This document shows, one piece after another, positions 29,193 through 60,644 of a stretch of 64,000 nt of DNA. Position 1 is the first letter of the stretch, and every line of letters starts with the position of its first letter. This stretch comes from Fundidesulfovibrio soli (GTDB taxonomy: Bacteria > Desulfobacterota > Desulfovibrionia > Desulfovibrionales > Desulfovibrionaceae). The position numbers and the translations under genes were made by a program. The notes beneath the pieces were generated by a model. That model saw only the letters and a program-made list of their open reading frames with translations, ran no database searches and was not told the origin of the DNA. The DNA is taken from contig NZ_JAKZKW010000001.1 of assembly GCF_022808695.1 (NCBI RefSeq), forward strand, positions 372,001 through 436,000, in the 5' to 3' direction.

Positions 29193-30650
29193 ATGCAGCT
29201 CTACAACACCCTGACGCGCTCCAAGCAGACCTTCACCCCCGTGCACGAAGGCCGGGTCTCCATGTATGTCTGCGGCATCACCGCCTACGACTACTGCCAC
29301 ATCGGCCACGCCCGCTCGGCCGTGGTCTTCGACGTGATGGTCCGCTACCTGCGCTCCACGGGCCTGGACGTGCGCTTCGCCCGCAACTTCACCGACGTCG
29401 ACGACAAGATCATCAAGCGCGCCCAACAGGAGGGGACGACTTCCGAAGCCGTGTCGGAGAAGTACATCGCCGCCTTCTACGAGGACATGGACCGCCTGGG
29501 CATCCTCCGGGCCGACATGGAACCCCGCGCCACCAAATACATCGGCGAGATGATCAAGCTGGCCCAGCACCTCATCGAGACGGGCTACGCCTACGCCACA
29601 CCCTCCGGCGACGTGTACTTCAGCGTGCGGGCCTTCAAGCCCTACGGCAAGCTCTCCGGGCGCAACCTGGAGGAGCTGCAGGCGGGCGCCCGCGTTGCCC
29701 CAGGCGAGGAGAAGAAGGATCCTCTGGATTTCGCTCTCTGGAAGGCCGCCAAGCCCGGCGAGCCCACCTGGGACAGCCCCTGGGGCCCCGGCCGCCCCGG
29801 CTGGCACCTGGAATGCTCGGCCATGAGCGAGGACCTGCTCGGCCTGCCCCTGGACATCCACGGCGGCGGGCAGGACCTGGTCTTCCCCCACCACGAGAAC
29901 GAGATCGCCCAGACCGAGGCCGCCTCGGGCAAGGAGTTCTCCAACTACTGGGTGCACAACGGCTTCGTGCAGATCAACTCCGAGAAGATGTCCAAATCGC
30001 TGGGCAACTTCATCACCATCCGCGACATCTTCGGCTACTGCCTGCCCGAGGTGCTGCGCTTCTTCCTGATCTCCTCGCACTACCGCTCACCGCTGGACTA
30101 CTCCACCGAGGCCCTGGACGAGGCCGAAAAGGGCATCAAGCGCATCTACTCCGCCCTGGCCCAGATCGAGGAGACCCTGGCCGGGACCAAGTGGTCCGGC
30201 GCGGCCGCCCCGGCGGAGCTGGTCCAGGAATGCGCCAACCTGCGCGCCGGGTTCAGCCAGGCCATGGAGGACGACCTGAACACCGCCGCCGCCATCGGCC
30301 ACGTGTTCGGCATGGTGCGCCTGGCCGGGCGCGTCATGGAGGACAAGGCCCTGCGCAAGAGCCAGGGCGGCAAGGAGCTGCTGGAGTCCATCCGCTCGAA
30401 CTTCAAGGAATACTCGAATATTCTTGGAGTGTTCGGCAGCGATCCCGCAGGGTTCCTGCTTGAGCTGCGTGACAGCAAGGCCGGACGCAAGGGCATCAGG
30501 GGTGAAGCTGTGGAAGCCCTGCTGGCCGCCCGCAAGCAGGCCCGCGCCGACAAGAACTTCGCCGAGTCCGACCGCATCCGCGACGAACTGGCCGCCATGG
30601 GCGTGGAGGTCAAGGACACCCCGGCCGGGGCCGTCTGGGACGTGGCCTAG
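29193..30650 (+). CDS. cysS: Cysteinyl-tRNA synthetase
   Basis: The ATG at 29193 behind CAAGGAT gives 485 aa, typical for bacterial CysRS; an earlier start would add 18 non-conserved residues. The class I signature HIGH is at 36-39, the zinc Cys at 27 (YVCGIT), and KMSKS at 265-269. WHLECSAM and [11 protein letters not shown] are the standard zinc and cysteine-specificity regions, and the C-terminal DALR-type helical domain is complete. It charges tRNA-Cys. A strong terminator follows. Confidence 0.97.
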
Positions 30651-30780: not shown

Positions 30781-30985
30781 TGACAAGTCCGGTTTTGGCT
30801 TCTGCAGGGCCGGAATGGCTGACGTTCTTCTAATACAGCGGACAGTCCGGCCCTGGAGAGGCCAAGACCGGAGCCTGGTCAGAGAGGATCCTCCGACGGC
30901 CAAAGGGAGGAGCTCCCCTTGAAAACCCCTCTGGAATGGTCCGTTCAGCGTCTCTCCGCTGGCTTGAGCAACCCGCCGGGCGGCC

Positions 30986-31813
30986 TCAGAACTTGTCGCG
31001 ATTGAAGGCGTCCAGCGCGCTCAGCCCCCCGCGCACGAGCACGAAGCGGTCCCTGGCCCTGTCCCAGCGGTATTCGTCGGAATACGTCGCGGGCGGTGCG
31101 GCACGCTTGGGCTTGGGGCATCCTACGGCGTCGTCGGTATCCGGGCCCTTTGTCAGCGTAACCTCCGCCAGCACACGGGGATACGGGCTGCCGGGATCGG
31201 GCGGGAAGCTCCATTTCAGGCTCTCGGCAAACGAACGCTGGCACATGCCGCGCACCGAGAGCGTGAAAACGGTGGCGATCCTGCGGATGCGCTCCTTGTG
31301 GATGTGGAACAGGGCCGCATCCTGGTAGCCTTGATTGGAATTGAAATGGGAGTTGGCCACCACGAAGGCCTGCCCGCCCCCGAAGGTCATGAAGGGGCGT
31401 GAGAGCGAGGTGAACTGGTCCGTCTTGAGCTCCACCACATCCAACGGCTCGGATTCCCCAGCCCGGAACAGCGCCAGCATGGATGCGCCTTCGCCGGGCA
31501 CGTCCGTCCCTGCGTCTTCAGCCTCCATGAACAGCAGCACGTAAGCCCGTCCATCGGAGAGCACGTCCGCCCTGTTGAAGGCCGTCAGCCGGGTACCGGC
31601 CCGCAGCACCGTGCGCCCCTTCACGCCCGGGCGGCGCAGCACCTTCTCCTCCGCGAGCCTCAGGACGCCGGGCGCATCCTCCCGCGCCCCCTTGAACACT
31701 TCGAGGGCAAGGGTGAGGGCATCCGGCCCGGACGCCTCGGTCCCCGAAGAAGCACATGGGGCAGTCAGGGCGAACGCAACAAGCAGCACGATCGCAAGCA
31801 ACAGTCTCGGCAT
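30986..31813 (-). CDS. Exported hypothetical protein
   Basis: The 275-aa product has a signal peptide (LLLAIVLLVAFALTAPCASS). An Ala-Pro-Cys near the cut site makes a lipoprotein possible, but the lipobox is poor. The mature part has KGRTVLRAGTRLTAFNRAD, DGRAYVLLFMEAED and FNSNQGYQDAALFHIH, and ends in a basic, Pro-rich DEYRWDRARDRFVL segment typical of periplasmic beta-rich proteins that report on a computed quantity. I do not recognise a family. It lies downstream of the TetR gene on the same strand (57 bases), so the two may be co-transcribed. Confidence 0.7.
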   Translation of the reverse strand: MPRLLLAIVLLVAFALTAPCASSGTEASGPDALTLALEVFKGAREDAPGVLRLAEEKVLRRPGVKGRTVLRAGTRLTAFNRADVLSDGRAYVLLFMEAEDAGTDVPGEGASMLALFRAGESEPLDVVELKTDQFTSLSRPFMTFGGGQAFVVANSHFNSNQGYQDAALFHIHKERIRRIATVFTLSVRGMCQRSFAESLKWSFPPDPGSPYPRVLAEVTLTKGPDTDDAVGCPKPKRAAPPATYSDEYRWDRARDRFVLVRGGLSALDAFNRDKF

Positions 31814-48785: not shown

Positions 48786-50465
48786 CTACAGCCTGTCCAG
48801 GATGTACCTGGCCGTGAGGGGCAGGCCGTCGTAGCGGGTGACGGTATCTTTGAAATGGTAGCCGGACTCCTGGCGGATCAGGCGCGCCAACTGGCAGCTG
48901 TGGTTGCCCTCCACCATCACCGCCCTCCCGGCACGCTCCAGGATGGGCAGGAACTGCTCCGGGTTCAGGGGATAGACCTGCCCGAAATGCAGCACAGCCG
49001 CGCTTTTGCCCGCAGCCCGAAGATCCTGCGCGGCTTCGAGCGCGGCGCCCACAGCCGACCCCCAGCACACCAGCAGGGTCGAGGGGGACTCGTCGCCTGT
49101 GAACGTGGGGGGAACCACGTCCGCCACGAGCCCTTCGAGTTTGCGCATGCGTTTGTCCACCATCTGGACGCGCACGGCCAGATCCTCGGTGATGTGGCCG
49201 TCCTCGGTGTGCTCGTCGCTGTCCAGCACCACCAGGTGCTCGCCGAAGCCGGGCACCAGCCTGGGGGAGACGCCGCTTGGGGTGAGAGCGTAGCGTTTGT
49301 ATCCGGCGGGGTCCTCGCAAGTCAGGCCGGGCGCGCTCACTGCGGGCAGGGAGTCCAGGTCGAACGGAACCACGGCGCGGTAGGAATCCGCCAGGAACTG
49401 GTCCGTAAGCACGAACACCGGGCTCTGCCACTTCTCGGTCTGGTCCACGGCCCGGTAGGTCAGCTCGAAGCACTGCTCGGGCGTGCCGGGAGTGAAGACC
49501 GCCCGGGGGAAGTCGCCGTGTCCGGCGTAGAGCACCATGTTCAGGTCGCCCTGCTCGGTGCGCGTGGGCAAGCCGGTGGCCGGGCCCGGCCGCTGGGCGA
49601 GCACCACGACCACTGGGGTCTCTGTCATGCCCGCGAGGCTCACCCCTTCGACCATCAGGGCAAAACCGCCGCCCGACGTGGGCACCACCACGCGCGCACC
49701 GGCATAGGACGCCCCCAGGGCCATGTTGATGGCCGCGATCTCGTCCTCGGCCTGCTCGATGAGCATCCCCATCTTCGTTCCCTTGGCGACGAACGTCGCC
49801 GCCACGGAGGTGGCCGGGGTCATGGGGTAGTAGGAGCAGAAATTCGCACCCGCGGCCAGCGCGCCGAAGGCGATGGCTTCGTTGCCGTTCATGAACAGGC
49901 GCTTCTCGGTGCGCACCGGGGGGGCCATGCAGCTGAACGTGGCGTTCTGCCCGGCGGCCCAGCCCTGCGCGGCGGCGAACACGTCCAGGTTCTGGCGCAA
50001 CACCTCATCGCCTTTCTTGGCGAACTCGCTCCGAATCAGCCCCTCCAGCCAGGAGCGCTCCAGGCAGAGCAGCTGCGCCAGCACGCCCAGGGCGGCCACG
50101 TTCTCGAACATGGGCTTGGGGCAGAGCGTCTTGAAGGGGATGGAGAGCCCCGGATGCCCCAGGCGGTCGATGGTTTCGTCCGCCAGCACCAAAGCCCGGG
50201 GGGTGAGCTGGGGGCGGTGCAGGGCCACCGTCTCGGCATTGAGGGCCACCAGCAGGTCGATGCTTTCCCTGGGGCCGTGGATGGCTTCGTGGCTGACCCG
50301 GATGGCGTAGGTGTTGTGCCCGCCCCTGATGCGGGACATGTAGTCCTGCGTGACCACGATCTCGTACCCCGCGCGCACCAGGGCCTTGGCCAGGAAATCG
50401 CCCACTGTCACGAGGCCCTGGCCGGCCTCGCCGCCTATGACGATCGAAACGCATGTGTCCGACAT
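48786..50465 (-). CDS. 2-oxoacid:acceptor oxidoreductase, fused gamma-alpha subunit
   Basis: The ATG at 50465 with GGAGGG upstream gives 559 aa. Residues 1-180 are the gamma domain (IVIGGEAGQGLVTVGDFLAKAL, QDYMSRIRGGHNTY); residues about 195-559 are the alpha domain (FMNGNEAIAFGALAAGANFCSYYPMTPATSV, PTSGGGFALMVEGVSLAGMTETPVVV). The gamma-alpha fusion is common for KorAB-type enzymes in Deltaproteobacteria and Archaea. No separate ferredoxin-like delta subunit is adjacent, so electrons pass to free ferredoxin. Confidence 0.93.
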   Translation of the reverse strand: MSDTCVSIVIGGEAGQGLVTVGDFLAKALVRAGYEIVVTQDYMSRIRGGHNTYAIRVSHEAIHGPRESIDLLVALNAETVALHRPQLTPRALVLADETIDRLGHPGLSIPFKTLCPKPMFENVAALGVLAQLLCLERSWLEGLIRSEFAKKGDEVLRQNLDVFAAAQGWAAGQNATFSCMAPPVRTEKRLFMNGNEAIAFGALAAGANFCSYYPMTPATSVAATFVAKGTKMGMLIEQAEDEIAAINMALGASYAGARVVVPTSGGGFALMVEGVSLAGMTETPVVVVLAQRPGPATGLPTRTEQGDLNMVLYAGHGDFPRAVFTPGTPEQCFELTYRAVDQTEKWQSPVFVLTDQFLADSYRAVVPFDLDSLPAVSAPGLTCEDPAGYKRYALTPSGVSPRLVPGFGEHLVVLDSDEHTEDGHITEDLAVRVQMVDKRMRKLEGLVADVVPPTFTGDESPSTLLVCWGSAVGAALEAAQDLRAAGKSAAVLHFGQVYPLNPEQFLPILERAGRAVMVEGNHSCQLARLIRQESGYHFKDTVTRYDGLPLTARYILDRL

Positions 50466-50581
50466 GAAATACCCTCCAGGTCGAAAAAAGGCGAAGCGGC
50501 CGCCGGTTATCCGGCGACCGCTTTGATGATGCATGCCGCAACCCGCCAAAGGGCTGCGCTGTGATGTGCGGGCCGCCGTGC

Positions 50582-51097
50582 TTACGCGTTGGCCCCGGTG
50601 GGCGGAGTGAACACCCGGGTGGCCAGTTCCTTGTCCAGCATGTAAAGCGCGGAGGGGTCGTTCTCAACCAGCTTGAGCTTGTTGATCACGTCCTGCACGC
50701 TGGCCTCCTCTTCCACCTGCTCGTCGATGAACCACTTCAGGTAGGAGGCGGTGGCGTGGTCGCGCTCGTCGATGGCGAGGTCCATCAGCGCGTTGATGCG
50801 CGCGGTGACGCCCTGCTCATGCTTGAGGGTCTCCAGGAAGGCGGCCAGAGGGCTGGCCCAGGAGTTCTCGGGGGCTTCCAGAGTCTGGAGCTTGATGCGG
50901 CCGCCGCGCTCGAAGGTGTAGTTGTAGAACTTGGTGGCGTGGAACTTTTCCTCCTGCTCCTGCACCTTCATCCAACTGGCGAAACCCATGAGGCCCATCT
51001 CCTCGAAGTAGGAGGCCATGGACAGGTACAGATAGGAGGACCACAGCTCCCATTTGACCTGGTCGTTGAGGGCCTGGTTCATTTTGTCGCTGAGCAT
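50582..51097 (-). CDS. Ferritin (FtnA-like)
   Basis: The 171-aa four-helix protein has the ferroxidase residues: a glutamate in VKWELWSSYLY, EEKFHATKF (E-x2-H), HEQGVT and the late QVEEEASVQ. It oxidises and stores iron. Its ATG lies three bases after the superoxide reductase stop, with GGAG inside the end of that gene. Pairing with superoxide reductase reduces free iron and hydrogen peroxide stress together. Confidence 0.95.
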   Translation of the reverse strand: MLSDKMNQALNDQVKWELWSSYLYLSMASYFEEMGLMGFASWMKVQEQEEKFHATKFYNYTFERGGRIKLQTLEAPENSWASPLAAFLETLKHEQGVTARINALMDLAIDERDHATASYLKWFIDEQVEEEASVQDVINKLKLVENDPSALYMLDKELATRVFTPPTGANA

Positions 51098-51100
51098 GGG

Positions 51101-51478
51101 CTACTCCGCCTTCCACAGGCCGTGCAGGTTGCAGTACTCGCGGGCCACGATCTTCTCGGCCTGGATGCAGAACTCGGCTTCGGGGGCCATGCCGGGCTTG
51201 AGCTCCTGGCGGTAGACCTTGCCGTCAGCGAAGACCTCGATGAACTCGATCCAGTGCTTCTCTTCCATGGGATGGGCCACGCTGCCGACCTTGACCTTGA
51301 AGCCGTTGGCGGTCTTCTCGATCACGGGGACGTGCTTCTCCTTGGCGGCGTCAACGGTATTGGCCGCGAAATACTTCATGGGCTCGCCGCAACAGACCAG
51401 ATCGCCGTCGCCGGTGTGCAGAACTTCAACGATGTTGCCGCAGAGCGCGCATTTGTAGATGCCGTGCAGTTCGGACAT
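51101..51478 (-). CDS. dfx: Desulfoferrodoxin (superoxide reductase, two-iron type)
   Basis: The ATG at 51478 with AAAGGAGA gives 125 aa. The N-terminal centre I is a rubredoxin-like Cys4 site (C10, C13, C29, C30). The catalytic centre II has EKHVP at 47-51 (Glu47, Lys48, His49 as in characterised enzymes), further His in [10 protein letters not shown], and the Cys-His pair in EYCNLHGLW. It reduces superoxide to hydrogen peroxide without making oxygen, a typical oxygen defence of anaerobes. Confidence 0.97.
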
Positions 51479-51596
51479 GGTGTCTCCTTTGCTTATGACG
51501 AAGGTGAAAGGCCGGCCGCCACGAAAAATGGGCGGCCGGGCATCTTCACCAGCTAAACCACTTTCGAGCGGTTTTCGCAAGGGCTTTCAGCGGGGG

Positions 51597-52601
51597 CTAT
51601 TTGAGGAATTCGTAAACGTAGCGCGCCGCCAGGAACAGGATGCACGCCGAAAGAAAGGCCTTGATATATTTGGCCGGGACGTATTTCTGGCAACGTGCCC
51701 CCACGTACATACCCGCGAAGCCGCCCAGGCCGAAGAGCGCCCCGAGGGTCCAGTCCGGGGCCACGGCCAGTTCGGGCCAGAACGGGGCGATGGCCTGGTA
51801 GAACACCACGCCGGAGACGCTGGTCAAAAAGGTGCCCATGAGCGCCGCGCCCGCCACGGTGTAGACCGGCAGCCCGAAGAAGGCCACGAAGAAGGGCGCG
51901 ATGATGGCCCCGCCGCCGATGCCGTACACGCCGCCCACCACGCCCACGATCAGGCTCATGAGCAGCACCCCGCCTGTGGAGAAGCAGTAGCGCTCGCCCT
52001 GGAAGACGAACTCCACCTGCTTGAACGAATACTTCGACTCGGAAACGGCCATGGAATCGATAAGGTTCCCCTGGGGGCCGCAGGCCGTGCCGCCCATTGC
52101 CACGGAGCTCTGCAGGGCGTTCTTCTGGGCGCAGCTCACCGGCTTGGCGGCGTCGCGCATGGAGCAGCCGGGGCCGGAACCCGGCGCGGGTTTTGCCGGG
52201 GCCTTCTTGAAGAAGGTGTCGCGCACGAGCCGCAGCCCGATATAGCCCAGCACCGCCGCGGCGAACATCTTGAAGTTCTTGGGATCCGGCAGATATTTGA
52301 CGCGGATGTAGGCCCCCAGAAACACCCCGGGCAGCGTGCCCAGGGCCGTGGCGTATGTCAGGGGCCAGACCATGCGTTTTTCGCGGATGTAGCGGTACAC
52401 CCCGCTGGGGATGGCCACGATGTTGAAAACCTGGTTGGTGGCGGAGACGGACGGCGAGACGTATCCCAGCACGCTCATCTGGAAGGGCAGCAGGAGAAAG
52501 GCGCCGGACACGCCGCCCATGGAGGTGCAGAAGGACACGGCGAAGGCCACCAGAGGCGGAACCCACACGGATACTTCGATGCCGGCTACCGGAAAATACA
52601 T
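51597..52601 (-). CDS. TauE/SafE-family permease
   Basis: The 334-aa protein has about nine transmembrane segments and the family signatures GGVSGAFLLLPFQM near the start and VGGVYGIGGGAIIAPFFVAFFGLP later, each holding the repeated GxxGGxxxxP pattern. A cytoplasmic loop of about 70 residues in the middle is rich in Pro and Cys (PGSGPGCSMRDAAKPVSC). The family exports or imports sulfite, sulfoacetate and similar anions, and sulfur compounds suit a sulfate reducer; the substrate here is not shown. It faces away from the FlgO-like operon. Confidence 0.88.
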   Translation of the reverse strand: MYFPVAGIEVSVWVPPLVAFAVSFCTSMGGVSGAFLLLPFQMSVLGYVSPSVSATNQVFNIVAIPSGVYRYIREKRMVWPLTYATALGTLPGVFLGAYIRVKYLPDPKNFKMFAAAVLGYIGLRLVRDTFFKKAPAKPAPGSGPGCSMRDAAKPVSCAQKNALQSSVAMGGTACGPQGNLIDSMAVSESKYSFKQVEFVFQGERYCFSTGGVLLMSLIVGVVGGVYGIGGGAIIAPFFVAFFGLPVYTVAGAALMGTFLTSVSGVVFYQAIAPFWPELAVAPDWTLGALFGLGGFAGMYVGARCQKYVPAKYIKAFLSACILFLAARYVYEFLK

Positions 52602-52692
52602 GGCGTCCTCGCTTGTTGTTCGAAGATAGTCACCAATTTCACAATGTCCGTGACCATTCTCTAGCCGCTCATGTGGAGCCTGTCTACAATCT

Positions 52693-52708
52693 CGGCACGG
52701 AGTTTGCG
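52693..52708 (+). promoter_or_regulatory. Sigma-54 (-24/-12) promoter of the FlgO-like operon
   Basis: CGGCACGGAGTTTGCG has GG at 52694-52695 and GC at 52706-52707 (N10 between) and matches TGGCACG-N4-TTGCW at 10 of 12 specified positions. Transcription should start near 52719, leaving about 90 bases before the ATG at 52808. Confidence 0.75.
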
Positions 52709-52807
52709 TTTTTATTCCAGCTAGGGCTACAGGGTAATTCCTGCCGCCCTCGACTAAAGGGTTTTGCTTCCCGGCCGATAGGACGGCAAACCATTGGAGG
52801 AACCGCC

Positions 52808-53734
52808 ATGCGCGCGACAGTTTTCCTCGCGGCGCTCGCCACGCTGGCTCTCGGGGCCGTTACGGCCGCGGCCCAGACCGCGGGGCCGGTCGACCCCGGG
52901 GCCGAAGTGGAACTTTCCAAGCCCCAGGGTACGACGATCAACGGCGTGTCCGGCGTGCGGGTGCGCTCCACTCCCGGCGTCTCGCAGGGCTATCTGGTGC
53001 CGGACGCCTCGGGCGGCTACGTCAACTACGCGCCGGGGCCGCCCCTGCCGCCAGCATCCCCGTCCAGGGCCGACGCCGAGGAGTTGAGGCTCTACGCGCG
53101 TGAGCTGGCCTCCCAGATCACCAAGGGCATCACGGGCGATTCTCCCCTTGCGGGCGTCTCCAGCGTGCCCTCGGCCTTCGTGGACCAGGATTCGCGCCAG
53201 ACGTCATCCTTCGGGCGGCTTCTGGGCGAGCAGATGATCTACGAGATGAACAGCCGGGGCTTCCCGGTCAAGGAGGCTCGCGGCAACGCGCCCGCAGCCG
53301 CCAAGGGCAAGAAGGGCCCGGTCGAGAGTCTGGCCGTGCTGGCGGGCTCCTACTACGTGGATCGCGACAACATCTTCGTCAACGCCCGGCTTGTGGAGCC
53401 ATCGGGCCGCGTGCTGCGCACCGGGTCCGTGCTTATACCCATGACCCCCACCCTGCGCAGGATGCTCGGCCTGCCCGAACCCGGGGCCATGCAGCCGCGC
53501 CTGCCCACGCTCATCGGCGCGCGCGACGTGAACGACCCGCCCGGCGCCTACGGCAAGCCCGCCGCGCCGTACACGCCATCGCCCGCCAAGGCCAAGCCGG
53601 GCACGCGCACCGGCAGCAAAAAGGCCTCGTCCAAGAAGCCCAAGCAGCCCTGCCCGCCGGGCTGCGAGCCCATCGACACCAACGCCAAGGCCCAGGCCCA
53701 GCCCGCGCAGCCGGCCCAGGCTCCGGGCAAGTAG
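52808..53734 (+). CDS. FlgO-like exported protein
   Basis: The ATG at 52808 follows TTGGAGGAA and gives 308 aa. A signal peptide ends in TAAAQ (about residue 23). Residues about 95-225 fit the FlgO domain pattern: LYARELASQITKGI, AFVDQDSRQTSSFGRLLGEQMIYEMNSRGFPVKEAR, then SLAVLAGSYYVDRDNIFVNARLVEPSGRVL. The C-terminal 80 residues are a Pro/Ala/Lys-rich low-complexity tail with KKASSKKPKQPCPPGCEP. FlgO proteins of Vibrio sit at the outer membrane around the flagellum. The sigma-54 promoter supports a motility link. The basic tail may bind peptidoglycan or another surface polymer. Confidence 0.8.
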   Translation: MRATVFLAALATLALGAVTAAAQTAGPVDPGAEVELSKPQGTTINGVSGVRVRSTPGVSQGYLVPDASGGYVNYAPGPPLPPASPSRADAEELRLYARELASQITKGITGDSPLAGVSSVPSAFVDQDSRQTSSFGRLLGEQMIYEMNSRGFPVKEARGNAPAAAKGKKGPVESLAVLAGSYYVDRDNIFVNARLVEPSGRVLRTGSVLIPMTPTLRRMLGLPEPGAMQPRLPTLIGARDVNDPPGAYGKPAAPYTPSPAKAKPGTRTGSKKASSKKPKQPCPPGCEPIDTNAKAQAQPAQPAQAPGK

Positions 53735-53741
53735 GCACGCC

Positions 53742-54002
53742 ATGAGGAACACCATCGCCGCCCTCCTGCTCTGCCTAGCCCTTTTATCCGGATGCCAGGG
53801 CAAGGGCCTCGCCGTGATCCCGCAGGACCCGCACAGCCTGGACCGCTACGCCCTGGGCCTGCGCTACAAGCAGCAGGGCCGCTACTTGCTGGCCCGCGAG
53901 CAGTTCCAGCTGGCCCTGGCCACCTCCCGGGACATGGACATGTCCCGGCGCTGCCAGGCTGAAATAGCCGCCATGGACCGCGCCATCCGCGAGGAGCGCT
54001 GA
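53742..54002 (+). CDS. Small TPR-like lipoprotein
   Basis: The 86-aa product has a lipobox (LSGC, Cys18) and one helical hairpin resembling a tetratricopeptide repeat (DRYALGLRYKQQGRYLLAREQFQLALA). It starts seven bases after the FlgO-like gene, so it belongs to that operon. A position analogous to the small lipoproteins encoded near flgO in Vibrio is possible, but no sequence match is claimed. Confidence 0.8.
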   Translation: MRNTIAALLLCLALLSGCQGKGLAVIPQDPHSLDRYALGLRYKQQGRYLLAREQFQLALATSRDMDMSRRCQAEIAAMDRAIREER

Positions 54003-54031
54003 AGAGACTTTTGACGTGTTGAGACGCGCTG

Positions 54032-54121
54032 TGTCCGTGGGCGGCCTGCCCGGCGCGGAGCGGAGCCGGCATTCTTCAAATATGCATGCCCGCTCCGTGC
54101 CGGGCATGCCGCCCACGGACA
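54032..54121. repeat. Long imperfect inverted repeat (hairpin A)
   Basis: Arms 54032-54062 and 54091-54121 pair over 31 positions with one mismatch (46/107) and one G-T pair (55/98). The inner GGCAT (68-72) and ATGCC (86-90) add five pairs. The loop contains TTCAAATAT, also found in hairpin B at 55115-55192. No T run follows, so it is not a classical terminator. Confidence 0.85.
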
Positions 54122-54197
54122 TGGCGACATACGGCACGGACCCTGCATGGTTGCGGCCAAGGCAACTCCTGCACTCTGACCGGCCGAGGAAACGACC

Positions 54198-54911
54198 ATG
54201 AGATACGCCGCCCTGCTCATCCTGCTCTCCATCAGCGCCTGCGCTCCCATGGCCAACGGCGAGATGGCCTCGCTCATCCCCTCCTTCGGCGGGGACAAGC
54301 CGGACATGAACGAATACTACCCCCAGACCGCCCGCATCATCGCCGACGAACTCGACGCGCAGCTGGCGCCTCGCCTTGGGGTGGGCCAGTCCACCACGCG
54401 GGGCCTGCAATGGCTCATCGTCACCACCCCGTCCGATCTGAACAACATGGGCCAGGCCACCCCGCTCTCCAGGGCCCTCGCGGAGGAGCTGGGCTCGGCC
54501 ATGACCGCCAAGGGCTATTACGTGCAGGAGATCAGGAAGACGTCCGAAGTGGTCTTCAACAAGGCCCAGGGCGAATTCATGCTTTCCCGAGACGTGCGCC
54601 AGCTGGCCACCAAGCAGTTCCAGAGCACCCTGGTGCTCACCGGGACCTACGTGAGCAGCCCCTACGGCGTGCGCTTCAACATCGAGGTGCTGGACGCCCG
54701 CAACAACGATGTGCTGGCCAAGTCCAGCAAGGTCATCCCCATGAGCCGCCCCGTGGCCTACCTGAACCAGAGCCGGACGCCCGGCCAGAGCAACGTGCGG
54801 CCCACCGTGGTCACCACGCCCGGCACGGACACCAGCGCGGACCCGTATATGGAACCGCAGGGCGACTGGCGCACCACCCGACAGAAGGTGCCCAACTTCC
54901 TGCTGCCCTAA
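54198..54911 (+). CDS. FlgO-like lipoprotein
   Basis: The 237-aa product has a lipobox (ISAC, Cys15) and a FlgO-type core: ARIIADELDAQLAPRLG, WLIVTTPSDLNNMGQATPLSRALAEELGSAMTAKGYYVQEIRK, and LVLTGTYVSSPYGVRFNIEVLDARNNDVLAKSSKVI. It parallels the FlgO-like protein encoded 1.4 kb upstream in the same direction, and the two flank the small lipoprotein gene. GAGGAAACGACC precedes the ATG. The hairpin between it and the lipoprotein gene may separate expression levels. Its outer-membrane location is inferred from the lipobox. Confidence 0.8.
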   Translation: MRYAALLILLSISACAPMANGEMASLIPSFGGDKPDMNEYYPQTARIIADELDAQLAPRLGVGQSTTRGLQWLIVTTPSDLNNMGQATPLSRALAEELGSAMTAKGYYVQEIRKTSEVVFNKAQGEFMLSRDVRQLATKQFQSTLVLTGTYVSSPYGVRFNIEVLDARNNDVLAKSSKVIPMSRPVAYLNQSRTPGQSNVRPTVVTTPGTDTSADPYMEPQGDWRTTRQKVPNFLLP

Positions 54912-54946
54912 GGGGAGGAAGAAAGGGGACGGGTCGCCTCCGGCGG

Positions 54947-54969
54947 CCTAAGGAACTTCGTTCCTTAGG
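54947..54969 (+). repeat. Short perfect hairpin in an intergenic GC-rich element
   Basis: CCTAAGGAAC and GTTCCTTAGG pair perfectly around TTC. It is preceded by CGCCTCCGGCGG and followed by AATCCTTTACCGCTTCGCGCC. Layouts of this type recur after genes in Desulfovibrio-like genomes, as I recall, but copy number here could not be measured. It may act as a weak terminator for the FlgO-like operon. Confidence 0.5.
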
Positions 54970-55114
54970 AATCCTTTACCGCTTCGCGCCGGGGTCGTCA
55001 GACTTCAGTACCGGCAGCGCCAACAAAGCTGGCAGCTCGACTACTGAAACCGCACGCATCCCCCTCGGCAGAACCCTGCCCTCTCTTGCCTCCCTATCTC
55101 GCCGCCCTGAAACG

Positions 55115-55192
55115 CGCCGGGGCCTGCGCCGGGCCGTCTGGTCGATATTATTCAAATATATCGGCGAAGACGGCCCTGCGCAGGCCCCGGCG
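55115..55192. repeat. Long imperfect inverted repeat (hairpin B)
   Basis: Fifteen bases (55115-55129) pair with 55178-55192, then after one mismatch nine bases (55131-55139) pair with 55168-55176, then CGATAT (55143-55148) pairs with ATATCG (55158-55163). The loop again contains TTCAAATAT. It lies between the FlgO-like lipoprotein gene and the convergent antiporter gene. The 54912-55267 gap otherwise has no gene. Confidence 0.85.
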
Positions 55193-55267
55193 GGACCCTA
55201 CAACCACTATTCAAACGCCCTCGGCAACCCATCCGCTAAAGGACGGCGTCACCGCATTGACGCCCTC

Positions 55268-57229
55268 CTACGCCGTCTTGAACAGCCAGGACTTGTCCAC
55301 CACGTCCTCCTGGCTGCCGAACACGTACGTCAGGTCGCCCGCTTCCAGCGTGAATTCCCCGTCGGGGTTCATGTGCATCTTCCCCGCGCGGTCCACGGCC
55401 ACCACGGTCAGCGCGTGCTCCTTGCGGATGTTGGCCTCCATCAGGGACTTGCCCTGCACCGGCGACCCTTCCTCCACACTGAACACGGCCAGATCCATGC
55501 CGGAGAGCTGCGGGGTCATGAGCTTCTGGCCGTCCGTGGGCAGGTCCGGGGTGCGCAGCATCCGGTAGTTCTTGCCCCGCGCCTCCAATATGAAGCGCTC
55601 GATCATCTGGTTGGGCACCAGGTATTCCACCAGCACGCGGGTGAATATCTCGATGGAGGTCTCGAACTCCTCGGGCACCACCTCGCAAGCCCCTACGCGC
55701 AGCAGTTCCTCGGTTTCGCCCACGAAACGGGTGCGCACGATGATGCGCAGATTCTGGTTCATCCCTCGGGCAGTGCCCACCATGCGCCGCACCGCCGTCG
55801 GGTCCGAGACCACGATCACCATCACGCGCGCCCTGTGGATGCCCGCATGCTCCAGCACCGCCGGATAGGAGGCGTCCCCGTAGCGGATGGTCTCCCCGGC
55901 CTTGCGCTCGCGCTTCACGGTGTCGATGTTCATCTCCAGAATCAGATAGGGAATACCCGCCCGCTTGGCCGCGTTGGCTATCTGGCGGCCTCCCGGCCCG
56001 AAACCGGCGATGATGAGGTGATCTGTGAGTTCCGTCTCGTCGTGGGCTTTTCCGGCCTTGGCCTTGGGCGCGCCGCAAACGCGGTTGGCCACCACCGGGG
56101 CCAGTTGGATCAGCCAGGGCGTCACCGCCATGGTGATGACACTGGAGGCCAGGAAGAGCTGGTAGCCGAACCCGGTGATGAGCTCCTCCTGCACGCCCAC
56201 CTTGACCAGCACGAAGGAGAACTCGCCCACCTGGGCCAGCCCCAAACCGCCCAGGATCGCCGTGCGCAGGGGGTAGCCCAGGGACATGACCGCCCCGCCC
56301 GCGGCCACGGACTTCAGCAGGATGACCGCCACAGCCGCGCCGAGCACCATCAGCGGGTATTGCAGCAGGAAGCTCACGTCCACCAGCATGCCCACGGAAA
56401 CGAAGAACAGGCTTGTGAACACGTCCTTGAAGGGCAGCACGCCCTCCAGGGCGTTCTGGGCGTACTCGGACTCGGAGAGCATCAGGCCGGCCAGAAAGGC
56501 GCCCAGCGAGAGCGACAGCCCCACTCCCGCCGTGAGCATGGCCACGGAGAGGCAGAACACGATGGAGGCCATCAGGAACAGCTCCCGGCTGCGCGCCCTG
56601 GCCACGGCCAGGAACAGCCTGGGCACCACGTACCGCGCCAGCAACAGCACCAGGGCGATCACCGCGCCGCCCTTGAGCAGCATCATGCCCAGGGAGCTGA
56701 CCAGGTCGCCCCCCGTGCTGCCCAGAAAGGGCGTGAGCAGCATCATGGGCACGATGGCCAAATCCTGGAAGATCAGGATGGCCAGGGCCACTCTGCCGTG
56801 GGGGCTCTCCAGCTCGGCGCGGGTCTGGAGCTGCTTGAGCACGATGGCCGTGGAGGACAGCGCGGCCAGGAAACCCAGGAACACAGCCTTCTTGAACCCG
56901 AAGCCCACGGCCACGCTGAGCAGCGCGAACATGGCGATGGTCAGCCCAATTTGTATGGAGCCGCCCATGAACACCGGGCGCTTGAGGCGCATGAGTTCAG
57001 AGGCCGAAAGCTCCACGCCGATGGAGAACAGCAGCAGGATCACGCCGATTTCCGCCATCATTTCGACCTGGTGCACGGAGCCCACCAGCTTGAAGCCGCC
57101 AGGGCCGCAGACCACACCCGCCACAAGGAAGCCTACGATGGGAGGCAGCCCCATCTTCAGGCAGACGAACATGACGCCCACGCTCATGGCAAGAATCAAT
57201 ACAAGGTCGGAAAGCAACGATATATCCAT
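55268..57229 (-). CDS. KefB-type monovalent cation:proton antiporter (CPA2)
   Basis: The ATG at 57229 behind GGAGTTATT gives 653 aa. Residues 1-385 form a Na+/H+ exchanger domain of about twelve transmembrane segments (GLPPIVGFLVAGVVCGPGG, LSSTAIVLKQLQTR, GAFLAGLMLSESEYA). Residues about 405-540 are a TrkA-N (RCK) Rossmann domain with IAGFGPGGRQIANA, and residues about 560-650 a TrkA-C domain. Such proteins expel potassium or sodium and are gated by nucleotide or thiol ligands through the RCK domain. It is a single gene, 39 bases past hairpin-B arm on its 3' side. Confidence 0.93.
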   Translation of the reverse strand: MDISLLSDLVLILAMSVGVMFVCLKMGLPPIVGFLVAGVVCGPGGFKLVGSVHQVEMMAEIGVILLLFSIGVELSASELMRLKRPVFMGGSIQIGLTIAMFALLSVAVGFGFKKAVFLGFLAALSSTAIVLKQLQTRAELESPHGRVALAILIFQDLAIVPMMLLTPFLGSTGGDLVSSLGMMLLKGGAVIALVLLLARYVVPRLFLAVARARSRELFLMASIVFCLSVAMLTAGVGLSLSLGAFLAGLMLSESEYAQNALEGVLPFKDVFTSLFFVSVGMLVDVSFLLQYPLMVLGAAVAVILLKSVAAGGAVMSLGYPLRTAILGGLGLAQVGEFSFVLVKVGVQEELITGFGYQLFLASSVITMAVTPWLIQLAPVVANRVCGAPKAKAGKAHDETELTDHLIIAGFGPGGRQIANAAKRAGIPYLILEMNIDTVKRERKAGETIRYGDASYPAVLEHAGIHRARVMVIVVSDPTAVRRMVGTARGMNQNLRIIVRTRFVGETEELLRVGACEVVPEEFETSIEIFTRVLVEYLVPNQMIERFILEARGKNYRMLRTPDLPTDGQKLMTPQLSGMDLAVFSVEEGSPVQGKSLMEANIRKEHALTVVAVDRAGKMHMNPDGEFTLEAGDLTYVFGSQEDVVDKSWLFKTA

Positions 57230-57791
57230 GCAATAACTCCACAAGTTTCTTGCGGCCAAGGATAGCGTAGCGGCCTGCCGCTGTCACCCCGGAGAGGTTG
57301 GATGCGCGGGATCGTACGTGCGGTTTCATTATGCCGGCTTGAATCGTTGCCGCGCTCCACGCCGCAATGCAGCTCAGGCGTTCCCCTGGCACGGGAGTGA
57401 CCATTGGGCGCGATGCACATAGCCGATGAAGATTGCGCCGCGCGGGATGGCCTTCTGTTCTTGGGGAGAGCATGAGCAGCACCTTGAAACGGAGTTGAAC
57501 GGCGCCGCCCGTTGCGGGCCACATTTCTGTCCTGGTCGCTTTGCGGCCGATCAGGGCTTGAGTTGTGAGGTCCAGATGACGGTTCCAGCCAGGATCAGGG
57601 GATGACGGATGATGACGGCGGATTCCCGGCTGCGATCGGACAAAGCGCGGGCCTGGCCGGACCGGACAACAGCAAGCATCCGCCGGGGCGAATCAGGCTA
57701 GGACATGGCCGAGAAAGGGCAATGGCCGGACAAGGGCCTGACAGAGAGTCCCCCGGAGCTTCGGCGTACCGAAGCTCCGGGGCGGGTCAGG
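57230..57791. other. Intergenic region with no assignable gene
   Basis: About 560 bases between two minus-strand genes. It should hold the antiporter promoter; none is clear. A strong hairpin at 57751-57782 marks the end of the dehydrogenase gene. I see no RNA gene or small ORF with a convincing ribosome site. Confidence 0.45.
57751..57782 (-). terminator. Terminator-like hairpin after the fused dehydrogenase
   Basis: CCCCGGAGCTTCGG pairs perfectly (14 bp) with its complement around a 4-base loop, nine bases past the dehydrogenase stop. There is no T run, so termination is probable but not certain. Confidence 0.65.
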
Positions 57792-60644
57792 CTATTTCAG
57801 GGGCGCGGTGGCGCGATCCACCAGATAGACGATGGACTGGTAGGCGATGTCGCTCTTTTTGGAGAGGCCAATCTCGCAGGTGCGGCTGTTGGAATAGCCC
57901 CCGGTGACGTCGGGCGGCAGGGCCTCGTTCAGGCCATCCAAGGCGGCCTCGTTGAGCTCGGGGATGTTGAAGCCCCGGTCGCCCGCGAAGCCGCAGCAGT
58001 TGATGCCGCGCGGCAGGGTCACGTTGCCTGCGCAGGCCTGGGCCACGGCCTTGAACTTGGCCGTGAGCCCCATCTTCACCGAGCTGCAGGTCACGTGGAT
58101 GGCCACCGAGTCCGGCAAGGGTGTGAAGCGCAGTTTGTCCATGAGGTGGTCGTGGATGAACTCCACGGGCTCCAGCAGCGTGAGGTCCGGCTCGATCTTG
58201 CGGCGCATGGTGTAGAGGCAGGGGCTGGTGTCGCAGAGGATGGGGATGCGCCCGTTGTCGCTCACGCGGCGCAGCTCCGCCTCCAGGGCGCGGACCTTCT
58301 GGTCGGCCTGGTCGAAAAAGCCCTTCGATTCGAACGCCATGCCGCAACAAAGCTCATCCAGATTTTGAGGGAAACGCACGCCGTACCCGGCCTTGCGCAG
58401 CACCGAGAGCATGGCCTCGTACACGGCGCGCTGGTCCGGGTCGGCCTTGGCCGGGCCCATGGACCTGACAACGCAGCTGGGGAAGTAGACCACCTCGCGC
58501 TCGGGCTGGCCGGTGGTGTCCTTGAAGGGCGGGGGCGTGATGCCCTTGGGCATCCACTTGGTCCACAGCGGGATGCGGTCGCCGGAGAGATCCCGCACGG
58601 ACTCGGCCAGCTGCCCCATGAGCCAGGTGCCCAGCACCCCGTGCAGGGCGTTGACCACCTTGAGGCCCATGCGCAATCCGCGCAGCACGCAGCCGAAGTT
58701 GTCCGCCACGCCCTGGGCTATTTTCCTGGACCGTGGCGTGGTCTGGCTGGCGCGGAGCTCCTTGGTGAACTTGCCCGTGTCGATGGCCACGGGGCACACC
58801 GTTGAGCAGAGCCCGTCCGCCGCGCAGGTCTGCTCGCCGAAGTAGGCGTACTCCTCCCAGAAACGCTTCATGAGGGCGTCATCGTGGGAGTTGCGGAGGC
58901 GCACCATGTTGCGTTGCAGGGCGATGCGCTGGCGCGGGGTGGTGGTGATGCTCCTGGAGGGGCAGACGGGCTCGCAGAAGCCGCACTCGATGCAGCGGTC
59001 GATGATTTCGTTGACCGCGGGCATGGGCTTGAGATTCTCAAGGTACACATGGGGGTTGTCGTTGATGATGACGCCGGGGTTGAGCAGGTTCTCCGGGTCG
59101 AAGGCATTCTTCAGGCGCACCATGGCGGCGTAGGCCTGCCTGCCCCACTCCATCTCGACGAAGGGGGCCATGTTGCGGCCGGTGCCGTGCTCGCCCTTGA
59201 GCGAACCGTCGTAGCGGCCCACCACCATCTCGGCCACTTCCTCCATGAGCTTCTGGTAGTTGTCCACCATGACGGGCTTGCTGAAGTCCGGGCAGAAGAC
59301 GAAGTGCAGGTTGCCCTCCAGGGCGTGGCCGAAGATGATGCCCTCGGGGAAGCCGTGCTTGTGCATGAGCTGCTGCAGCTCCACCGTGCCGAGGGCCAGG
59401 GACTCGATGGGGAAGACCACGTCCTCGATGACCACGGTGGTGCCCGGGGTGCGCGCGCCGCCCACCGAGGGGAACAGGCCCTTGCGGATGTTCCAGAGCT
59501 TCTCGTAGTCCTCCCGGGCGTCCATGAAGGTGATGGGGTGCACGGTGGGGATGTCCGCCACCAGGGCCTGGATGGCCTCGATGTTGGAGAGCAGCTCCTG
59601 CTTTTCGGGCGCGCGGGTCTCCACCAGGATGGCCGCCGCTTCATCGCTCAGCCCTTTGAGGAAGGCGGGCATGCCGGGCTTGTCCTCCACGGAGCGCAGG
59701 GAGGCCCTGTCCATGAGTTCCACCGCGGAGACCGGGCCCTTCTTGAGCTTGATGGTGGCCTGGCAGGCGCTGAAGATGTCCTTGTAGTAGAGCATGGCCG
59801 AGGCCTTGTGCGGGTGCTCGGGCACGGTGCGGTAGGTCACCTCGGAGATGAAGGCCAGGGTGCCCTCGGAGCCCACCATCAGGTGCAGCAGGATGTCGAT
59901 GGGGTCGTGGAAGTCCACGAAGGAGTTCAGGCCGTAGCCCGTGGTGTTCTTGATCTTGAACTTGCGGCGGATGCGCTCCATGAGGGCCGGGTCGGCGGCG
60001 ATCTCGTCGCGGATGGCCTCCAGCTCGCGCACCAGTGCGGGGTGTCCGTCCAGGAAGGCGTCGCGGGAGCGCGGGTCGGCGGTGTCCAGGGTGGTGCCGT
60101 CCACGAAGATGAGCTTCATGGACTCCACGGTCTTGTAGCTGTTCTCGGCGGTGCCGCAGCACATGCCCGAGGCGTTGTTGGCCGCGATGCCGCCGATCAT
60201 GGCCGCGTTGATGGAGGCCGGGTCCGGCCCGATCTTCTTGTTGAACGGCGCCAGCTGGAAGTTGGCCTCGGCCCCGATGACGCCGGGCTCCAGGCTGATG
60301 AAGTCCGCCTCGTCATGAATGTGCAGGCCCTTCCAGGCCCCCGCGAGGTAGATGAGCACCGAGTCCGTGACGGCCTGGCCGGAGAGGCTCGTCCCGGCCG
60401 TGCGGAAGGTCACGGGCACCTTGAGGGCGCTGGCATCGGACAGCACCTGGGAGACTTCCTCCGGGGTGCGGAGCTTGAGCACGATCTTGGGCACCAGCCT
60501 GTAGAAGCTGGCGTCGTCACCGTAGGCCAGATTGGTGAATGGGCCGCAGAAGATGCGCTCCTGCGGGATGAAGACCGCTACGCGGTCGTGAAATTCCTGA
60601 TAGTTTCCTGGCAGGCGGTTGCAATCGTCGGTCTGGGGCATCAT
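57792..60644 (-). CDS. Fused FAD-binding and Fe-S D-lactate/glycolate-type dehydrogenase
   Basis: The 950-aa protein has an FAD_binding_4 domain (about residues 40-200: PVTFRTAGTSLSGQAVTDSVLI, GGIAANNASGMCCGT), an FAD-oxidase C-terminal domain (to about 520), then two Fe-S cluster motifs (CIECGFCEPVCPSR and CAADGLCSTVCPVAI) and two CCG domains (CCGMAFES, CCGFAGD). It oxidises D-lactate or a similar 2-hydroxyacid and passes electrons to membrane or soluble carriers. The fused layout equals GlcD plus GlcF/LldE in one chain. AAGGAGCACCTC precedes the ATG. An Fe-S electron-transfer protein is encoded just upstream. Confidence 0.93.
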   Translation of the reverse strand: MMPQTDDCNRLPGNYQEFHDRVAVFIPQERIFCGPFTNLAYGDDASFYRLVPKIVLKLRTPEEVSQVLSDASALKVPVTFRTAGTSLSGQAVTDSVLIYLAGAWKGLHIHDEADFISLEPGVIGAEANFQLAPFNKKIGPDPASINAAMIGGIAANNASGMCCGTAENSYKTVESMKLIFVDGTTLDTADPRSRDAFLDGHPALVRELEAIRDEIAADPALMERIRRKFKIKNTTGYGLNSFVDFHDPIDILLHLMVGSEGTLAFISEVTYRTVPEHPHKASAMLYYKDIFSACQATIKLKKGPVSAVELMDRASLRSVEDKPGMPAFLKGLSDEAAAILVETRAPEKQELLSNIEAIQALVADIPTVHPITFMDAREDYEKLWNIRKGLFPSVGGARTPGTTVVIEDVVFPIESLALGTVELQQLMHKHGFPEGIIFGHALEGNLHFVFCPDFSKPVMVDNYQKLMEEVAEMVVGRYDGSLKGEHGTGRNMAPFVEMEWGRQAYAAMVRLKNAFDPENLLNPGVIINDNPHVYLENLKPMPAVNEIIDRCIECGFCEPVCPSRSITTTPRQRIALQRNMVRLRNSHDDALMKRFWEEYAYFGEQTCAADGLCSTVCPVAIDTGKFTKELRASQTTPRSRKIAQGVADNFGCVLRGLRMGLKVVNALHGVLGTWLMGQLAESVRDLSGDRIPLWTKWMPKGITPPPFKDTTGQPEREVVYFPSCVVRSMGPAKADPDQRAVYEAMLSVLRKAGYGVRFPQNLDELCCGMAFESKGFFDQADQKVRALEAELRRVSDNGRIPILCDTSPCLYTMRRKIEPDLTLLEPVEFIHDHLMDKLRFTPLPDSVAIHVTCSSVKMGLTAKFKAVAQACAGNVTLPRGINCCGFAGDRGFNIPELNEAALDGLNEALPPDVTGGYSNSRTCEIGLSKKSDIAYQSIVYLVDRATAPLK

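Follow-up and report, generated by a model that had tools for sequence, protein, structure and literature searches.

The window analysed here, a 64,000-nt stretch of the Fundidesulfovibrio soli genome, contains two FlgO-domain genes (PF17680) that point in the same direction, at 52811-53734 and 54198-54911, with an 86-aa open reading frame between them (53742..54002, + strand, no Pfam match). Two long hairpins, both on the + strand, lie on either side of the second FlgO-domain gene (54198..54911, +, E 2.6e-27), as the earlier note had stated. Hairpin A (54022..54131), with the 86-aa frame upstream of it and co-directional, has a stem at about 54027-54126 and a 9-nt loop, UCUUCAAAU, at 54073-54081. 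Hairpin B (55105..55202) has a stem at about 55115-55192 and a 9-nt loop, UAUUCAAAU, at 55149-55157; convergent to it runs a gene for a Na+/H+ exchanger with TrkA domains (55268..57259, - strand; PF00999, PF02254, PF02080). The gap between the FlgO gene and hairpin B also holds a short palindromic repeat of a second kind (54936..54991, +), separate from the hairpin element. Repeats of this CTAAGGAAC-TTCG type often adjoin the long hairpins and have many intergenic matches in all six genus relatives searched (G001-G006).

The arms of hairpin A (54027-54063 and 54090-54126) span 37 nt with 89% complementarity, and those of hairpin B (55115-55139 and 55168-55192) span 25 nt with 96% complementarity and are supplemented by an 8-bp inner stem. 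Folded as RNA of the + strand, A is predicted at -92.4 kcal/mol (z -11.4) and B at -71.6 kcal/mol (z -9.2), and none of 200 dinucleotide shuffles of either was as stable. Both 9-nt loops are closed by AU/AU pairs, and the feet of hairpin B, CTGAAACGCG and CTACAACCAC, are similar to those of other copies. The inverted-arm search and the RNA folds bear out the original description of two long hairpins with a common loop motif, and it is also correct that the two hairpins have unrelated arm sequences and that neither has a T run. Two details have to be amended. Of the 15+9+6 pairing proposed for hairpin B, the 15+9 stands, but the third stem comprises 8 pairs, giving 15+9+8 in the fold; and the shared word TTCAAATAT, although present in both hairpins, is not itself the loop, which is 9 nt long, but most of the loop plus closing bases.

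This word occurs twice in the window, where 0.03 occurrences are expected, and at 42 sites in the whole window genome (G000), as opposed to 2 for a reversed control. Inspection of the folds assigned 29 of the 42 sites to such hairpins, whole or cut in half at a contig end, and the other 13 to ordinary sequence. The sharing of the word might have been a coincidence, as the earlier note allowed, had there been no further copies and no covariation; dozens of copies were found, and the counts in window and genome, together with the covariation described below, rule out a chance origin. Copies were sought with two covariance models. R1 was derived from 25 cores (alignment A1, omitting 6 of 31 cores; one of these, L005, has arms with better pairing on the opposite strand) and found further copies with other loop-closing stems; R2 was derived from 35 of 100 listed cores (alignment A4). 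Hairpin A scores 55.6 bits with R1 and 42.8 bits with R2, and hairpin B 57.6 and 51.0 bits. A third window copy, of subclass 2, lies at 30785..30875 (+), with its core at 30801-30859 and the loop UCUUCUAAU at about 30826-30834 (R1 46 bits; R2 52.0 bits, E 3e-07). On one side of it a + strand cysteinyl-tRNA synthetase gene (PF01406) ends at 30650, on the other there is a - strand open reading frame at 30986-31813, and a T-run hairpin stands upstream of it.

Both window hairpins belong to a dispersed gene-end repeat family in sulfate-reducing bacteria. The extracted set amounts to 125 rows: 65 from the window genome (at most 64 sites), 49 from Fundidesulfovibrio agrisoli SG106 (G001; at most 47 sites) and 11 from four other genomes. 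Contig-end partner rows were omitted from it (L023, L032, L039 and L040 in G000; L088 and L089 in G001), and the pairs L015/L033, L337/L346 and L344/L345 were kept though they are ends of one element. In the other five genomes of the genus, G002 to G006, R2 has 24, 49, 1, 3 and 18 matches, the only one in G004 folding as a long hairpin with the loop UCUUCAGAU, and in another genus it has 4 (G086), 1 (G107) and 15 (G145). A loop-stem pattern of this second genus, which misses copies with a different stem, occurs 50 times in G145, 24 times in G086 and 0-2 times in each of 12 other genomes, with 0 matches for the reversed control. Over 149 genomes of the family and 199 of the order, two overlapping sets searched with stricter filters, R2 matches were found in 10 and 8 genomes respectively, all of them in the two genera. 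Among 80 genome stretches listed for the first loop pattern, a listing from which the window's own genome may be missing, at least 13 F. agrisoli stretches contain at least 14 hairpin matches; one Moraxella stretch passed the energy filter alone, owing to a nearby terminator-like hairpin, and in 48 viral stretches the motif had no long hairpin around it. The family is not an artefact of draft assembly, because G145 consists of one contig. The hairpins do break assemblies: counted from match positions, the draft genome of the window has 22 of its 82 contig ends inside a copy, and such families may therefore be undercounted in short-read genomes. Several contig-end pairs have common arms, and some copies contain poly-G stretches or N runs (the latter in L024, L290, L293 and L295).

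Copies of about 90-130 nt follow one design, in which a foot resembling TGAACCGCG leads into a long arm; GATATTCTTCAAATATATC then separates this arm from its complement, which is followed by a foot resembling CTACAACCAC. The apical loop of 9 nt is nearly constant, reading UCUUC-NN-AU in most rows; over the 125 rows it is UCUUCAAAU in 99, UCUUCCGAU in 15 and some other variant in 11. In most copies the loop may resemble the anticodon loop (CUUCAAA) of the tRNA for selenocysteine. The aligned stem reaches at least 35 positions in 88 of 95 long rows (mismatches counted, maximum 46), and the arms are unlike between most copies, some subclasses having common arms. Closing stems include GAUAU/AUAUC, GAUGU/ACAGC, GAUAU/AUGUC, GAUCG/CGGUC, CGAAUCG/CGGUUCG and GCGUAU/AUGCGC, and the loop is identical in two genera although arms and closing pairs differ. 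The loop can be read as coding for Phe-Phe-Lys/Arg-Tyr, a possibility disfavoured by TAA at that place in the window copy at 30801 and in L352, and also by base-paired changes at the loop closing. An Rfam search of window positions 50000-58000 returned no family at its gathering score, the best scores being those of generic long-hairpin (microRNA) models.

Covariation across related genomes, which the earlier note had proposed to look for, is strong. In A1, 24 of 25 pairs have changed on both sides and the covariation score is 0.668 against a shuffle mean of 0.192; in A4, all 25 pairs have changed on both sides and the score is 0.796 against 0.224, neither score being reached by any of 500 shuffles. 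The count of pairs changed on both sides is a weak measure in A4, since 18 of the 500 shuffles likewise show 25. When the partner is shifted by 1-3 columns, the paired cells fall from 88% to 34-50% over the two alignments (from 87.8% to 38-50% in A1); as the structure was derived from the same sequences, this comparison favours it over the slides from the outset. A constant loop on jointly changing arms suggests a structured RNA or a single-stranded DNA element.

Mismatch types point to one strand in particular. G.U pairs are more frequent on the loop strand than A.C mismatches: 35 against 9 in A1 (17 elements to 1, with 7 ties) and 204 against 48 in the full set of 125 (86 elements to 9). Other genomes contributed 68 rows, six of them at sites already among the 125, and gave 185 against 66. 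By genome, G.U exceeds A.C by 71 to 12 in G003 and 56 to 12 in G002, and G145 shows no excess (19 against 22). These counts are not independent events, as the copies are kin, and the copy-finding models, which themselves rate G.U over A.C, may contribute to the excess; a C-to-T strand mutation bias could also yield part of it. Since G.U exceeds A.C on this strand, the loop strand probably folds by itself, as a single strand. The excess points to RNA and single-stranded DNA alike, being compatible with both, and RNA is most likely the folded form. The general marks of a structured RNA, covariation and strand-specific wobble, are both present, save for the wobble in G145.

The copies are intergenic, an overlap with a called gene being seen in 1 of 125 rows (in G002), and they stand among other short palindromic repeats. 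Gene context was derived from a home-made codon-usage gene finder, not from annotation. On this basis, the 46 copies of the window genome with both neighbours called comprise 17 co-directional in sense, 8 antisense, 20 convergent and 1 divergent, and the 36 such copies of G001, which has sites in common with G000, comprise 15, 8, 13 and 0. In seven other genomes (68 of 71 matches used, with G003 represented by 27 rows of 49 matches), the 65 copies with both neighbours called divide into 27 sense, 4 antisense, 34 convergent and 0 divergent (sense against antisense, p = 3e-5). Divergent placement is thus found in 1 of 147 copies (46 + 36 + 65). As background, the window gaps of at least 150 nt without an element comprise 8 with both genes on the + strand, 3 with both on the - strand, 3 divergent and 1 convergent. 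Sense outnumbers antisense by 11 to 0 in G003 and 10 to 1 in G145; in G000, 8 of 25 co-directional copies are antisense (orientation bias p = 0.11).

Placement at 3' ends and between convergent genes, combined with very stable stems, is also what transcription terminators lacking a T run would display. Termination, on the other hand, requires neither a stem of some 40 bp nor a constant loop. The sequence directly 3' of the stem has no T run of the expected kind: the tail is T-poor (T makes up 13% of it in 109 rows, with runs of T no longer than 5). Moreover, several copies lie within gene runs such as trp, or past a T-run terminator, so that we regard this reading as very improbable. A crude scan detected a T-run terminator upstream in 11 of the 45 window-genome rows with an upstream gene, and the transcription of some copies is uncertain because they stand downstream of one.

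The history of individual sites combines conservation of flanks with extensive change in the hairpins. A flank match near a G001 row exists for 35 of the 65 window-genome rows, in a few cases through other repeats. The stems of 24 chosen ortholog pairs contain 72 compensated pairs, 42 G.U switches, 118 single and 22 double breaks, the breaks being inflated because the comparison was gapless (indels, N runs, poor assembly), and arm divergence differs widely from one pair to another. At the window sites, F. agrisoli has kept the flanks, with hairpin A scrambled around an N run and hairpin B shortened; no hairpin of the A/B kind was reported in the stretches of G002-G006 that match these sites. 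In at least two cases, orthologous copies have matching arms but opposite orientations of the core: G145 (C1:4243816) against G086 (C20:39678), and L005 against L078. Core inversion is unfavourable to a strand-specific RNA; draft assembly may add such flips. Inverted cores between orthologs, like the very variable arm divergence, would suit a family without function, in which templated (hairpin) mutation and inverted-repeat recombination keep the palindromes perfect and the loop is constant because the copies are young, for they point to DNA-level processes on the palindrome. Such processes leave it unexplained that one loop persists in two genera despite altered arms and closing pairs, and the asymmetry of G.U over A.C is unexpected under strand-symmetric correction. 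We consider this reading improbable.

Several observations indicate mobility and lend support to the mobile palindromic element with arm turnover that the earlier note had envisaged. Copy numbers are patchy among close relatives (0, 1, 2, 24 and 50 in the second genus, by one loop-stem pattern, and 1 to about 64 in Fundidesulfovibrio), G003 has many cores of equal score, and subclass 2 contains near-identical cores and arms. A site of the second genus, with an alpha-amylase-domain gene (presumably glgB-like) on one side and pdxA (PF04166) on the other, exists in occupied and empty states: it is occupied in G107, G262, G145 and G086, and also in G263, judged from a contig start beside pdxA; G260 has a truncated hairpin there, and G134 and G261 have what may be a short-stemmed relic; and the site lacks such a hairpin in G264, G251, G156, G030, G123 and G166. 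These features would equally be expected of a purely selfish, non-autonomous hairpin of single-stranded DNA, with loop and feet recognised in trans by a DNA-processing enzyme, that persists at 3' ends because it does little harm there; tolerance of G.T on one strand fits single-stranded DNA too. Against this stand the sense bias in G003 and G145, which it does not predict, the fact that no target duplication was established, and the failure of either enzyme family searched for (PF01797 and PF00078) to track the copies. We therefore see a selfish DNA element of this sort as possible, but rather unlikely.

The Y1 transposase PF01797 is absent from all 7 Fundidesulfovibrio genomes and, in the second genus, from G145 (50 copies), G107 and G134; its carriers there are some genomes without the loop pattern (G030, G123 and G166) and some with it (G086 and G260). 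There is no association between PF01797 and the copies. Reverse transcriptase PF00078 was found in 4 of 10 genomes (G000, G001, G004 and G107) and is absent from the copy-rich G003 (49 matches) and from G145; dispersal by reverse transcription is not supported, as PF00078 fails to track the copies. Separately, one reverse transcriptase gene of the window genome (G000:C36:4317-5087) resides on a 9.8-kb contig with a hairpin copy at both ends. Pairs of copies about 2 kb apart raised the possibility of a composite transposon of 2 kb, which was rejected, the genes inside the pairs not being homologous between pairs: the one antiporter-like similarity among them is confined to a single pair, and trp-type biosynthetic genes account for four of those checked. 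The trp gene cluster at G000 C20:49006-56332 (PF00290, PF00697, PF00218 and a PALP enzyme) has four copies inside or beside it (L028-L030), in both orientations.

Taken together, folding as a single strand and placement at 3' ends support the other reading offered in the earlier note, that of an RNA or protein recognition element. We favour a REP-like mobile repeat that bears a 3'-end RNA hairpin recognised through its loop, action as RNA being the likeliest mechanism, and we put the probability of this reading at roughly 0.55. The loop strand would be transcribed as part of a 3'-UTR, an intercistronic region or read-through RNA, and would then fold into the long hairpin. The loop might serve as the recognition point for a putative factor, protein or RNA, and the stem would mainly be required to be double-stranded, which would leave its sequence free. 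By analogy with proposals made for REP repeats, the likeliest effect would be on message 3' ends, through end protection, processing or insulation, and the repeat would meanwhile spread as a non-autonomous element. More tentatively, the hairpins may constitute a novel class of structured RNA, with the loop UCUUCNNAU on a long free stem, that would label dozens of messages in each cell at their 3' ends for recognition by a single putative loop-binding factor, conceivably forming a mobile post-transcriptional regulon in the Desulfovibrionaceae.

Known systems share parts of this architecture. Geminivirus replication origins combine an invariant nonanucleotide loop with a stem that is free to vary in sequence, and the hairpin family resembles them in its constant loop and free stem, but it has another loop and is chromosomal and dispersed. 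The hairpin ends of IS200/IS605 elements are recognised as single strands; here, by contrast, PF01797 does not track the family. REPINs, which go with RAYT transposases (PMC3116915), are defined by two conserved REP units and are short hairpin-forming repeats thought to be mobile. The present repeats form hairpins too, yet each is a single long hairpin whose arms are mostly not conserved, and no transposase linked to them was found. REP units of the GTAG/CGTC super-families (Di Nocera et al. 2013, PMC3733652) are 20-40 bp long, with a stem of 6-13 bp and a terminal GTAG or CGTC tag; they lie mostly between co-directional or convergent genes, 3' of coding regions and rarely between divergent ones, are plausibly transcribed, and are sorted largely by stem sequence and tag. 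Like them, the hairpin family is a dispersed, intergenic, multi-copy palindrome found among other short repeats, between co-directional or convergent genes and rarely between divergent ones. Unlike them, it has stems mostly of at least 35 positions, a constant 9-nt loop on free arms, and no consistent tag: CTAC 30-60 nt past the loop, counted without a chance level, occurs in 9/23, 5/26 and 0/6 copies of classes 1, 2 and 3 in G000, in 3/16, 1/18 and 2/7 in G001, and in 0/27 and 0/15 copies in G003 and G145, and a CGTC tag is likewise inconsistent. Identity with REP/RAYT systems is hence not supported by PF01797, size or tag. The family is akin to REP as a set of dispersed intergenic palindromes and falls outside the REP definitions of size and tag; in the portions of the literature that our search reached, we found no description of this family. 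We regard it as REP-like, its novelty lying in a hairpin whose loop is constant and whose stem sequence is free. REP repeats are classed largely by stem sequence and tag, whereas here the loop is fixed across two genera and the stem is largely free, so that a direct question can be posed: what reads the loop, and does the repeat act as RNA or as single-stranded DNA?
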